NCBI GenBank assembly: GCA_937860145.1
Contig: CALMBF010000180.1
Location: 1 to 43,006, forward strand
Length of the DNA stretch: 43,006 nucleotides
Direction of reading: 5' to 3'
Source of the DNA: an uncultured Geobacter sp.
GTDB taxonomy: Bacteria; Desulfobacterota; Desulfuromonadia; Geobacterales; DSM-12255
Shown here in pieces: positions 2,930-28,724 of this stretch. The translations under genes and the position numbers were made by a program. Each line of letters begins with the position of its first letter. The first letter of the stretch is position 1. Below the pieces are notes generated by a model, which was not told the DNA's origin, did not search any database, and saw only the letters and a program-made list of their open reading frames with translations.

Positions 2930-2943
2930 GTCTTCCACAATAA

Positions 2944-3032
2944 GCCAGCTGGGGGAGCTCGCACGGGCTGAGATGAGGGAAACCTCGAACCCCTATCACC
3001 TGATCCGGGTAGCGCCGGCGTAGGGAAGCGGC
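2944..3032 (+). promoter_or_regulatory. TPP riboswitch (Thi box)
   Basis: Contains the signature blocks GGGCTGAGATGAGGG and ATCACCTGATCCGGGTA followed by GCCGGCGTAGGGAAG, in order and at standard spacing. P1 can be formed by GCC-A-GCT (2944-2950) with AGCGGC (3027-3032). It precedes a strong terminator and the thiED-thiC genes, so TPP binding should favour termination. Confidence 0.95.
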
Positions 3033-3065
3033 CAGAAGAGATTCGAGGAGATCACCTGTTTCTGG

Positions 3066-5981: not shown

Positions 5982-6056
5982 GCCGATGTAGCACAGGGGT
6001 AGTGCAGCTGATTCGTAATCAGCAGGTCAGCGGTTCAAATCCGCTCATCGGCTCCA
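5982..6056 (+). tRNA. tRNA-Thr (anticodon CGU), CCA encoded
   Basis: Acceptor arms GCCGATG and CATCGGC pair over seven bases. The anticodon arm is GCTGA-TTCGTAA-TCAGC, giving anticodon CGT, which reads ACG. The T arm is AGCGG-TTCAAAT-CCGCT. T is the discriminator base and CCA follows at 6054-6056. It has its own promoter and terminator. No integrase lies nearby, so there is no sign that it served as an attachment site. Confidence 0.95.
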
Positions 6057-6229: not shown

Positions 6230-6318
6230 ACAGATACACGATAATACTCAACCATCCGCGAGGGTGGGGCGGAAAGCCTTCAGGATCTCTCTGAGACAGC
6301 CGGGTTGCCGAAATATCA
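6230..6318 (+). promoter_or_regulatory. GEMM-I class riboswitch, probably the cGAMP (GEMM-Ib) variant
   Basis: Compared from memory with the Vc2 c-di-GMP aptamer, the order of elements is conserved: AACC, a P2 stem CCATCC/GGGTGG closed by a GCGA tetraloop, the core GGGGCGGAAAGCC, a P3 stem (TCTC/GAGA) and AGCCGGGTTGCCGA. Aligning backwards from AACC puts an A (6246) at the position equivalent to Vc2 G20. A20 is the change described for Geobacter GEMM-Ib switches that prefer 3',3'-cGAMP to c-di-GMP. Class is well supported; ligand is inference. Confidence 0.83.
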
Positions 6319-26591: not shown

Positions 26592-27896
26592 CTAGGAGTT
26601 AAGATACTCCCGGATCTTCTCCGCCAGGGTGCCGTAGATCCTCTCGCACTCCCGCTCCTCCTTCTCCAGCAGGGTGACGCGGAACCCCTGGAGCGACGTG
26701 TTGAATGACGACAGGGGGACGATGCAGATGCCGGTCGTTGCCAGGATGTAGTAGACGAACCGCTTGTCCGGCGAGACATTGGGTGCGTTCACCAGGTTTT
26801 CGACCAGCTCCCGTACCTCGGCATTGGCAATGGGGAGGCTCTGCCCGTTGTTCAGAAGCCCCTCCTCGAAAGCGACCGACATGTAGAAGGCGCCATTGGT
26901 CCGGTTGACGTTCAGACCGGGGACCCCCTTGAGATAGTCGTAGGTGATGTTGCTCATCCGCTCGTAGCGGCGGATCCGCTCTTCCAGGTAGACCGGGTAC
27001 TCGGGGTGCTGCATGATCGCCGGGATGCACTTCTGGGGGAGGGTCGTGGAGCAGACCTCGTTCATCTTCACCGTGAGGATGGCGTTGACGTACTTCTGGA
27101 AATCGGCGTCCGTCCCGTAGTTGTACACCTCTATCCAGCCGCAGCGGGAACCGGGCCAGGGGAACTCCTTGGAAATCCCCTTCAGGGCGATGGCCGGCAC
27201 CTCGCCGATGACGTCGGAGATCGGCACGGTCTTCTCGCCGTTGTAGACGATGTTGTTGTAGACCTCGTCGGCGATGATGAAGAGATCGAACTCCCGGGCG
27301 ATGGCAACGATCTTCTCCAGGGTCTCCTTCGGATAGACCATGCCCGTCGGGTTGTCGGGGTTGATCAGCATGACCGCGACGATCTGAGGGTTGTACTTCA
27401 CGTGGTTCCGCAGGTCCTCCAGGTCGGGGTACCAGTTGTTCTCGGGGCGCAGTTGGTAGCAGATGGGGGCCGCGTGGGCATTCCCCGACTCCCCCAGGGT
27501 ATGGGTGGTGTAGGTGGGGGAGGGCATCAGCACCCTGGTCTCGGGCCGGAGGCTGCCGTAGATCTTGGCGATGGCGTCCCCCAGGCCGTTGAAGAAGATG
27601 ATGTCGTCGGGCGTGATCTGCGCCCCGCCCCGGCTGTTGGTGAGGGAGCAGATGAACTCGCGGGTCTCCAGGACCCCCCGGGTATGGCAGTACCCCCAGG
27701 TATCGTTCTCCATGGTTTCCCGCGCCACAATCTCCTTCATCCAGGCGGGGATGACCTCCCCCTTGACGATGGGGTCACCGATGTTTTCCCAGTTGATCTT
27801 CACGCCGCACTTCTGCAGTTTTTCCGCAACGTTGACGATGTTGCGGATCTCGTAGGTCATCTCTCCCACACCGGGACTTACCAGAGCTGTTCTCAT
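26592..27896 (-). CDS. PLP-dependent class I/II aminotransferase, probably alanine-forming
   Basis: 434 residues from the ATG at 27896 (SD GGAGG). Fold type I aminotransferase: INPDNPTGMVYP, DLFIIADEVYNNIVY, the PLP lysine in ALKGISKEFPWPGSRCGW, and the substrate arginine in SLQGFRVTLL. Overall family resemblance is to alanine/aspartate aminotransferases. A 27-codon leader peptide with eleven Ala codons and a terminator lies just upstream, so expression probably responds to Ala-tRNA charging. This points to alanine as the product (pyruvate plus glutamate). Enzyme assignment by sequence alone would be only general. Confidence 0.88.
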   Translation of the reverse strand: MRTALVSPGVGEMTYEIRNIVNVAEKLQKCGVKINWENIGDPIVKGEVIPAWMKEIVARETMENDTWGYCHTRGVLETREFICSLTNSRGGAQITPDDIIFFNGLGDAIAKIYGSLRPETRVLMPSPTYTTHTLGESGNAHAAPICYQLRPENNWYPDLEDLRNHVKYNPQIVAVMLINPDNPTGMVYPKETLEKIVAIAREFDLFIIADEVYNNIVYNGEKTVPISDVIGEVPAIALKGISKEFPWPGSRCGWIEVYNYGTDADFQKYVNAILTVKMNEVCSTTLPQKCIPAIMQHPEYPVYLEERIRRYERMSNITYDYLKGVPGLNVNRTNGAFYMSVAFEEGLLNNGQSLPIANAEVRELVENLVNAPNVSPDKRFVYYILATTGICIVPLSSFNTSLQGFRVTLLEKEERECERIYGTLAEKIREYLNS

Positions 27897-27913: not shown

Positions 27914-27946
27914 TGAAAAAAGCCGCGGGCTGCGTGCCCACGGCTT
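27914..27946 (-). terminator. Attenuator terminator ahead of the aminotransferase
   Basis: On the minus strand AAGCCGTGGGC (27946-27936) pairs with GCCCGCGGCTT (27930-27920) around loop ACGCA, followed by T residues. It lies between the leader peptide and the structural gene, the position of a classical attenuator. Confidence 0.85.
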
Positions 27947-27971
27947 TACTTTCTGAATGGACTGACGGCGT

Positions 27972-28055
27972 TCAGCAAGCAGCGGGCAACCCTGCGGCGT
28001 GGAACGCCGCGGCGGTGATAGCTCGTGCTGCCGATGCAGTAACGGTCGTGATCAT
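27972..28055 (-). CDS. Alanine-rich attenuator leader peptide, 27 residues
   Basis: ATG at 28055 to TGA at 27974-27972. The peptide is MITTVTASAARAITAAA followed by FHAAGLPAAC: eleven of 27 residues are alanine, including one run of three and three pairs. It precedes a strong terminator and an aminotransferase gene. The segment GCCCGCTGCTT (27987-27977), inside its last codons, copies the terminator's 3' arm GCCCGCGGCTT at 10 of 11 bases. It can therefore pair with the terminator's 5' arm to form an antiterminator. The SD is weak (CGAG) and the predicted promoter leaves a very short 5' end, so initiation efficiency is uncertain. Confidence 0.78.
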   Translation of the reverse strand: MITTVTASAARAITAAAFHAAGLPAAC

Positions 28056-28064
28056 GATTTTTCT

Positions 28065-28093
28065 CGAATAACACGCGTACTGCCGCAAGTCAA
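28065..28093 (-). promoter_or_regulatory. Candidate promoter of the leader-aminotransferase unit
   Basis: Minus strand TTGACT (28093-28088), 17-base spacer, TATTCG (28070-28065). The predicted start is only a few bases before the leader ATG, which would make the leader nearly leaderless. Confidence 0.35.
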
Positions 28094-28133: not shown

Positions 28134-28724
28134 TCATTCGGCCGTCCGTACGGATATCAGCAGCCTGGAGTTGTCGTCGCGCCAGCGCAGCCACCCCTCC
28201 CCGCCGGCCCCGGCGTTGACCCGCACCCAGTCGCCCCTCACGGCAGCAACCCGGAAGGACTCGTCCTGGCCGACGCTCCGCAGGCTCTCCGCCCCCGAGA
28301 CCGCCTCGCGGCGCAGCTGGTACGACTCCTTGCGCAGGCCGGGCAGCATGCCGATGGACCGCCCCGGAAGGAACTCCCCCCAGGGGAGGAACTCCCCGGA
28401 GCGGCGGCGCTCCACCCAGCCGTCCCTCTCCGCGGCATCGTAGACGATGCGCAGCCAGCCGGGACGGGTGGAGAGGACCACCGCGGGGAAACAGCCCGAA
28501 ACCGCACCCAGCGACGGGAGGAGACCCGGCAGCTCCCTCCCCGGGAGTTCGGCAAGGCGCCCCAGCTTCGGTTCCCGGTAGATCACCAGCCTCTTCCCGT
28601 CGTCCCTGACCAGGAGCAGGCCCATGCCGCTGAGGGGCCTGGCCTTCACCGGCGAGGCAGCACGGGCCGGCAGGGCAACGGCCGGCAGCAGGAAGAGGAG
28701 CAGGAGGAAGCGGAGCAGCACCAC
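28134..28724 (-). CDS. Secreted SH3-like domain protein
   Basis: 196 residues starting at a GTG (28724) directly after the TGA of the cupin gene. Signal peptide MVLLRFLLLLFLLPAVALPARA. The mature part shows two SH3-like stretches (VIYREPKLGRLAEL, PGWLRIVYDAAERDGWVERR and FRVAAVRGDWVRVNAGAGGEGWLRW), of the bacterial SH3 type that binds cell-wall peptides. Exact family not recognised. Probably cotranscribed with the cupin gene. Confidence 0.75.
   Translation of the reverse strand: MVLLRFLLLLFLLPAVALPARAASPVKARPLSGMGLLLVRDDGKRLVIYREPKLGRLAELPGRELPGLLPSLGAVSGCFPAVVLSTRPGWLRIVYDAAERDGWVERRRSGEFLPWGEFLPGRSIGMLPGLRKESYQLRREAVSGAESLRSVGQDESFRVAAVRGDWVRVNAGAGGEGWLRWRDDNSRLLISVRTAE

Follow-up and report, generated by a model that had tools for sequence, protein, structure and literature searches.

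Organization of the Locus

The window considered here is the whole stretch of DNA that was analyzed, 43,006 nucleotides from an uncultured Geobacter sp. On its minus strand, a promoter is followed by a short leader ORF, an intrinsic terminator and an aminotransferase gene, which together form the following set of features:

28065..28093, minus strand: predicted sigma-70-type promoter, with TTGACT at 28093-28088, a 17-nt spacing, an extended -10 element TGTTATTCG and the hexamer TATTCG at 28070-28065
27972..28055, minus strand: leader peptide ORF, encoding MITTVTASAARAITAAAFHAAGLPAAC and a stop codon; 27 codons, of which 11 are Ala, probably translated from a nearly leaderless 5' end
28019..28025, minus strand: heptamer CGAGCTA, covering the codons for Arg-Ala and the first base of the next codon; nearly invariant nucleotides
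27994..28010, minus strand: conserved hairpin GCGGCG-loop-CGCCGC, made by Ala codons; 6 pairs
27976..27989, minus strand: antiterminator 5' arm (segment 2), TTGCCCGCTGCTTG, in the last leader codons; predicted to pair with the terminator 5' arm
27936..27947, minus strand: terminator 5' arm, also the antiterminator 3' arm (segment 3), AAAGCCGTGGGC; predicted pairing
27914..27947, minus strand: intrinsic terminator (3:4) with its T run; 12 pairs, -22.2 kcal/mol
26592..27896, minus strand: PLP aminotransferase gene, the putatively regulated gene, of the PRK06855/NF005334 family; probable alanine aminotransferase by sequence

The leader ORF, read from 28055 to 27972, begins with ATG ATC ACG and ends with TGC TGA. 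Its stop codon is separated from the terminator stem by 24 nt, where the initial annotation had counted 26 bases, a value that depends on the stem start chosen. From 27947 to 27919, the terminator reads AAAGCCGTGGGC-ACGCA-GCCCGCGGCTTT, with the tail TTTCATTTTT, and the ATG of the aminotransferase gene at 27896 is preceded by GGAGG. The association noted initially, an Ala-rich ORF (27 codons, 11 Ala) and a terminator in front of an aminotransferase gene, is indeed present, and the same arrangement recurs before orthologues. Upstream of the leader lies a gene for an SH3-like protein, also on the minus strand (28134-28724), which ends at 28134.

The aminotransferase itself, of 434 residues, matches the NF005334/PRK06855 family with 748.9 bits for a cut-off of 443. 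An alanine aminotransferase family ranks second among the NCBIfam matches, far below its own cut-off. By sequence, the solved structures that match best belong to a Pyrococcus transaminase (1xi9) and to the E. coli glutamate-pyruvate aminotransferase AlaA (4cvq); tyrosine aminotransferases come next among the nearest solved relatives, a point that weighs on the other side. From these matches, the enzyme probably makes alanine. The same genome also encodes an alanine dehydrogenase, a point that was counted against an alanine-responsive attenuator.

Distribution among Relatives

Orthologues of the aminotransferase are found in all 58 genomes searched within the order, the source genome included, and, across the phylum, in 82 of the 395 genomes screened. 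Upstream DNA was collected from these genomes and also from 80 named contigs, which represent the 80 best among 387 relatives and come from Geobacterales (Geotalea, Geobacter, Geomonas, Oryzomonas, Pelotalea and other genera, often as metagenome-assembled genomes). The resulting 215 loci yield 179 distinct upstream regions with a length of 120 nt or more. A leader module was called when an ORF contained at least five Ala codons, with a run of at least three, and when its stop codon lay at most 90 nt from a terminator. This rule detects the module in 87 of the 179 distinct regions. In one of them (L122), the ORF picked by the rule was wrong, the true leader lying further upstream, as it also does in L118, L120, L123 and L129; in L016, which was added by hand, the Ala run has only two codons. 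The replacement in L122 and these five additions (the four leaders lying further upstream and L016) bring the set to 92 of 179, which is the set referred to hereafter. Four Geomonas-type leaders with four Ala codons (L043, L044, L156, L184) were excluded from these later counts.

Loss of the Ala-rich ORF before orthologues had been named at the outset as a sign against attenuation, and it is not what the order displays, since 46 of its 58 genomes keep the ORF with its terminator directly before the gene. In 34 of these 46 the leader carries the heptamer, and in the other 12 it belongs to the Geomonas type. A leader is also present in all eight genomes from other orders of the class, with diverged DNA. 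For the rest of the phylum, 65 genomes have the gene, of which 62 were examined (G224 and G253 were left out and L075 has no upstream DNA); the leader was found in ten of these 62, again with diverged DNA. In the other 52 the gene is present and no leader was seen, which counts against the attenuator reading. The putative attenuator module is thus widespread within one order, occurs throughout the sampled remainder of the class and has a scattered distribution in the phylum.

Terminator and Ala-rich ORF strongly co-occur. Among 177 regions of at least 250 nt, an ORF with an Ala run accompanies 84 of the 96 strong terminators, versus 4 of the 81 regions lacking a strong terminator (p = 1e-31, for relatives that are not independent, the arm-swap test described below being the only one made at the level of lineages, with ten lineages and 33 of the 92 leaders). 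With the limit set at four Ala, these numbers become 88 of 96 versus 4 of 81. As regards the 12 terminators for which no leader was called, the leader is cut by, or lies beyond, the 300-nt limit in three cases (L120, L123, L124), five correspond to L016 and to the Geomonas types L043, L044, L156 and L184, and four (L109, L132, L133, L172) appear unrelated.

The gene for the SH3-like protein, a frequent neighbor, bears on gain or loss of the module. It precedes the leader in 69 of 92 cases, with a median of 249 nt between its end and the aminotransferase gene. Of the 87 regions for which no leader was called, 26 have this gene as well; in 24 of them (among these L019, L021, L023, L024, L028, L032, L037, L154 and L162) only 27-108 nt separate it from the aminotransferase gene, and no terminator is called in 23 of these 24. 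A distance of 27-108 nt leaves no room for a promoter, a leader and a terminator, as if the block had been lost (or gained) as a unit. The two remaining regions, with a larger distance, fit Geomonas types that do have a leader.

A covariance model, R1, was built from the leader cores and used to search for other copies. In the source genome, it scores 78 bits at this locus, a sequence that is itself a member of the model, versus 19 bits at the next-best place. A match at E<=0.01 is found in 83 of 141 genomes of the order. The aminotransferase gene comes next downstream in all 30 R1 loci that were opened, and six weak matches (E 0.001-0.008) lie outside the loci opened. Stricter filters were applied in the searches of the 141 order and 395 phylum genomes, with loss of weak matches. 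Since R1 misses most of the known distant leaders, the search for leaders before other genes bears on close copies only. One phylum match outside the known set (L263) proved to be false, lying inside a long ORF that by eye resembles a UvrD-type helicase. One R1 match of the order points to a new context: in a genome from another family (G019; L026 2780-4150, minus strand), a module of the same build can be recognized by eye before a gene for a 316-residue protein without a Pfam match, the aminotransferase gene being located 1.2 kb downstream. This arrangement suggests that the leader can serve an operon. No leader was seen in about 3-4 kb of additional upstream DNA in three other genomes of the same genus (G013, G016, G021).

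Conservation of the Leader Peptide

The leaders were chosen by their Ala content (at least five Ala and a run of at least three), and the Ala richness of the set is therefore no evidence by itself. A selection made by the heptamer only, with no Ala criterion, gives the same picture: in 34 of 34 loci, an ATG is found upstream in frame and the first codon of the run encodes Ala, the longest Ala run downstream being of three or four codons in 33 loci and of two in one. The leader is thus not a freely drifting ORF, the other observation that had been put forward as speaking against the proposal. The first codon of the run could be compared in 51 distinct cores of equal length, one of which (L064, also a row of the 52-row covariation set) comes from outside the order. 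It encodes Ala in all 51, through GCC (36), GCA (10), GCG (4) or GCT (1).

A common end codon is used in 50 of 70 distinct heptamer-type cores, by means of three different stop codons. In the 51 cores, the stops are TGA (41), TAA (8) and TAG (2), their place at the end being given by construction because these cores were restricted to one length. Variation at third codon positions is only somewhat above that at first and second positions (0.85 versus 0.71 and 0.76 bits, heptamer codons excluded); the GC hairpin may constrain the third positions too. In distant families the DNA differs and the Ala runs persist, as in MDRASDAAAAAAWLCRARGPGVGG, MTASTFKTTDAPRATGAAAAGAAAAAAAGQPAVPGGST or ...AIAITAAAAASARWPAVL..., the weakest of these leaders being L064, with a single run of three. 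Conserved coding, with Ala kept through synonymous change, argues that the leader is translated and that its alanines matter.

One exception was observed within the order. In L141 (2832-2894), the frame is shifted past the Ala run, and both this run and the antiterminator arm persist, reflecting either a sequencing error or a relaxed need for the second half of the peptide.

Promoter and Translation Start

A TTGAC promoter element, spaced by 17 or 18 nt from a hexamer starting with TA, is found in 80 of the 91 leaders examined by a loose scan, which accepts 4 of 6 matching bases in one element and 3 of 6 in the other, and TG stands ahead of the -10 hexamer in 76 of the 91. The distance between the end of the hexamer and the leader ATG amounts to 6-9 nt in 70 of 91 leaders, versus a mean of 3.1 and at most 4 of 91 when the DNA preceding the ATG is shuffled (20 shuffles). 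From this distance we infer that the mRNA starts at the ATG or within about 3 bases of it, and translation of the leader is probably near-leaderless. Several distant leaders have a longer 5' end, with a purine-rich stretch resembling a Shine-Dalgarno sequence before the ATG (L131, L086, L064).

Terminator, Antiterminator and Switching Model

The sequence GCCCGCTGCTT, in the last leader codons, is identical to the terminator 3' arm GCCCGCGGCTT at 10 of 11 bases, exactly as the initial annotation had it. Pairing of these last codons (CCCGCTGCT) with the terminator 5' arm is predicted at -18.1 kcal/mol. The position of the best-pairing stretch varies among relatives. In 60 of 92 leaders it begins within the final 20 nt of the ORF or past its end, and in the other 32, which include most Geomonas and most of the remote families, it lies further upstream; coverage by a ribosome at the stop codon thus explains the leaders unequally well.

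The pairing between the two arms was analyzed by swapping arms among ten lineages, with 33 representatives. Own partners pair with a mean of -18.2 kcal/mol, versus -15.7 kcal/mol for swapped ones (median p 0.003, maximum 0.02). The signal sits in the group mean, the own partner being ranked first by only one of the 33 representatives. The antiterminator pairs hardly change within the order, and their covariation is not significant (6.83 of 9 positions paired versus 6.79 after shuffling, p 0.16, 52 rows). Conservation of the Ala codons, one half of the comparative check suggested initially, is thus found, and covarying hairpins, the other half, are not seen within the order. A mismatch between core position 50 and terminator position 4 is present in the antiterminator of 52 of 52 leaders and may keep it weaker than the terminator.

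Switching was modeled by hiding the RNA under a ribosome, with an assumed ribosome front of 14 nt and equilibrium folding. With a ribosome on the first Ala run, the modeled pairing of the terminator 5' arm in the antiterminator reaches group means of 0.66-0.82; with a ribosome at the stop codon, these means are 0.05-0.31. In the window, the antiterminator arm is predicted to form when the modeled ribosome sits on the Ala run. For 91 of 92 leaders, a stall on the run (maximum over the run) gives a higher value than a ribosome at the stop codon; for 82 of 92, it gives a higher value than the ribosome-free leader. The six codons before the modeled switch point are 51% Ala, versus 31% elsewhere. 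Relative to the end of the longest Ala run, this point has a median position of 4 codons downstream (range -16 to +19). When the segment behind the run was shuffled, in 25 of the 92 leaders, the mean modeled pairing fell from 0.76 to 0.59. Shuffled segments pair less on average in 24 of these 25 representatives, L107 behaving the opposite way; taken singly, 9 of the 25 show a clear effect (at most 2 of 40 shuffles). In the predicted structures, for the window and between lineages, the antiterminator, with its 5' arm near the end of the ORF, excludes the terminator.

In the ribosome-free model, the antiterminator is also favored (group means 0.54-0.79). Nonetheless, the GC hairpin GCGGCG:CGCCGC is conserved, with five of its six pairs standard in 54 of 54 sequences, and it shows little covariation because these pairs are mostly invariant. 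These results bear on the three segments proposed initially by analogy with trp and his. The 2:3 and 3:4 pairings are supported by lineage comparison and modeling, with no significant covariation within the order. As for segment 1, GCAGGG, the stretch proposed to mask the antiterminator arm, varies among relatives, the conserved internal hairpin being GCGGCG:CGCCGC instead, and masking by GCAGGG is not supported because the untranslated leader mostly forms the antiterminator in the model.

The CGAGCTA Heptamer

The heptamer CGAGCTA is found in 68 of the 92 leaders, always in the same frame. Its nucleotides are nearly fixed even at synonymous sites (CGA in 51 and GCT in 49 of 51 cores), whereas neighboring codons change synonymously. 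The heptamer also occurs in distant families (L059, L061, L074, L076, L086, L124, L129, L131), variants of it are found in others, and Geomonas has none. Its pairing with the downstream transcript is no better than that of shuffled sequences.

The stretch UAGCUC is common in the D arms of tRNAs, to which CGAGCUA is complementary. It is conceivable, if doubtful, that the leader acts as a double sensor, with the Ala run on one side and an RNA element CGAGCUA, read by another partner, on the other. Candidate partners would be a protein, the ribosome, RNA polymerase or tRNA itself. If such a double sensor existed, alanine attenuation would have a component absent from the known trp and his systems.

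Proposed Mechanism and Alternatives

The leader is very likely a ribosome-mediated transcription attenuator of the trp/his type, which would sense charged tRNA-Ala and control a probable alanine-making aminotransferase. This reading builds on the comparison of related sequences, through the conserved coding of the leader, its Ala run, promoter and terminator, their co-occurrence and a pairing of arms that is stronger inside lineages than across them. Stalling by uncharged tRNA-Ala and the switch itself can be envisioned as follows. Transcription would begin at the leader ATG or within about 3 bases of it, and the ribosome would load at the 5' end of the transcript. With ample Ala-tRNA, the ribosome would pass the Ala run up to the stop codon and cover CCCGCTGCT, which would let the terminator form and stop transcription before the gene. 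When Ala-tRNA is scarce, the ribosome would stall on the Ala run, leaving CCCGCTGCT free to pair with the terminator 5' arm (GCCGTGGGC), so that RNA polymerase would enter the gene. The leader would probably allow the cell to switch the enzyme on only when alanine is short, in Geobacter-like bacteria and in some distant relatives.

The modeled profiles also fit a broader sensor, since the antiterminator is favored for stalls at nearly any codon up to the Ala run as well as in the ribosome-free leader. The leader might accordingly respond to general translation stress, any slow, stalled or absent ribosome leading to readthrough, with alanine as one trigger among others. This possibility is compatible with alanine sensing and, taken as the main function, looks rather unlikely: the most conserved residues are Ala and the fixed Arg-Ala of the heptamer, Ala is enriched right before the modeled switch point, and the target is a metabolic aminotransferase and no stress gene. 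The upstream SH3-protein gene, which lies on the same strand and ends at 28134, could in principle own the terminator, next to an ORF arisen by chance. This is scarcely credible in view of the conserved promoter between that gene and the leader, of the co-occurrence of terminator and Ala ORF across relatives, and of the regions lacking a called leader and having a close SH3 gene (27-108 nt), 23 of 24 of which have no called terminator.

Two further explanations start from the heptamer. Its fixation at synonymous sites, its presence in distant families and the conserved hairpin would suit an RNA-level element, a riboswitch or a protein site, built around CGAGCTA and the GC hairpin, of which the ORF would be a by-product. 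Such an element has a slim chance, given that Ala codons outside the heptamer vary synonymously, that the ORF ends at the same codon despite the use of three stop codons, that the start codon either sits at the promoter or follows a Shine-Dalgarno-like stretch, that the Geomonas leaders retain the Ala run and the terminator without any heptamer, and that no Rfam family matches. The chance is slimmer still for arrest by the nascent peptide, of the tnaC or erm type, in which a peptide R-A-x-x-A-A-A would sense a small molecule such as free alanine. Arg-Ala does lie at a fixed distance from the Ala run within the order; distant peptides, however, share little beyond Ala and, in many of them, Arg-Ala, their C-terminal residues vary, and a signal carried by the peptide alone would leave the synonymous sites of Arg-Ala free to change.

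Relation to Known Systems

Ribosome-mediated attenuation is the mode of control of the trp, his, leu, thr, phe and ilv operons of proteobacteria. The alanine leader shares with the trp/his type a short ORF in which codons for the presumed end product form a run, a predicted antiterminator arm near the end of this ORF, an intrinsic terminator and a gene behind it that is probably biosynthetic. It differs by its alanine codons, its near-leaderless start and the fixed heptamer inside the ORF, as well as by the apparent lack of a conserved masking hairpin of the classical 1:2 kind. In contrast to trp, the untranslated leader also reads through in the model (0.54-0.79). The mechanism would be that of the classical attenuators, with the heptamer as the one odd feature, and whiB7 is the sole alanine precedent that could be traced. 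Alanine is a very abundant amino acid and, to our knowledge, is not among the classical targets of attenuation, which agrees with the remark in the initial annotation that this is no textbook case, apart from the mycobacterial whiB7 system linked to alanine starvation. The title of a 2024 paper by Poulton et al. reportedly ties whiB7 to alanine starvation.

Ribosome stalling in the uORF of the mycobacterial whiB7/wblC leader leads to induction, and the whiB7 program includes the alanine biosynthesis gene aspC (PMC13236596). Both systems combine a uORF with a terminator and, here as a proposal, an induction by stalling in the uORF and a link to alanine. The target of the whiB7 leader is a transcription factor that drives antibiotic resistance genes as well, whereas here the attenuator would act directly on the aminotransferase gene, and in a different phylum. 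Mycobacteria also have leaderless short ORFs encoding polycysteine (Canestrari et al. 2020, as cited in PMC13236596 and PMC9094748). They resemble the present leader in being leaderless and in carrying a codon run for the end product before its biosynthetic operon; they differ in that the amino acid is cysteine and the process is described as translation attenuation, while the module described here includes an intrinsic terminator. Searches of the open-licence literature, judged by the openings of abstracts, showed no alanine attenuator on a biosynthetic gene, and a search for the word alanine in PMC4833913 and PMC1262725 found it in neither; two comparative surveys, Vitreschak et al. 2004 and Lopatovskaya et al. 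2010 (the latter cited in PMC4833913), could contain one.

If the proposed mechanism is correct, it would represent a direct alanine attenuator on a biosynthetic gene. It would also suggest a function for an uncharacterized aminotransferase family, offer an alanine reporter for Geobacter-type bacteria and provide a comparator for the alanine-starvation arm of whiB7.

Another known response to alanine shortage is that of the Ala T-boxes of Firmicutes, which achieve antitermination on uncharged tRNA-Ala by binding the tRNA directly. The proposed response of the present leader is likewise an antitermination dependent on uncharged tRNA-Ala. T-boxes differ by this direct tRNA binding and by the absence of a leader ORF, and the present sequence has no T-box match. 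A riboswitch, a T-box or another leader known to Rfam was indeed rejected, the best match in the attenuator stretch reaching 18.3 bits for a gathering score of 47; there is no T-box among the 15 Rfam matches at E<=10, and no Rfam family for the attenuator. Elsewhere in the window, Rfam matches comprise a TPP riboswitch at 2941-3043 (72.6 bits) and a c-di-GMP-I riboswitch at 6236-6312 (37.7 bits, slightly over its gathering score of 35), both on the plus strand, as well as a tRNA at 5982-6053.
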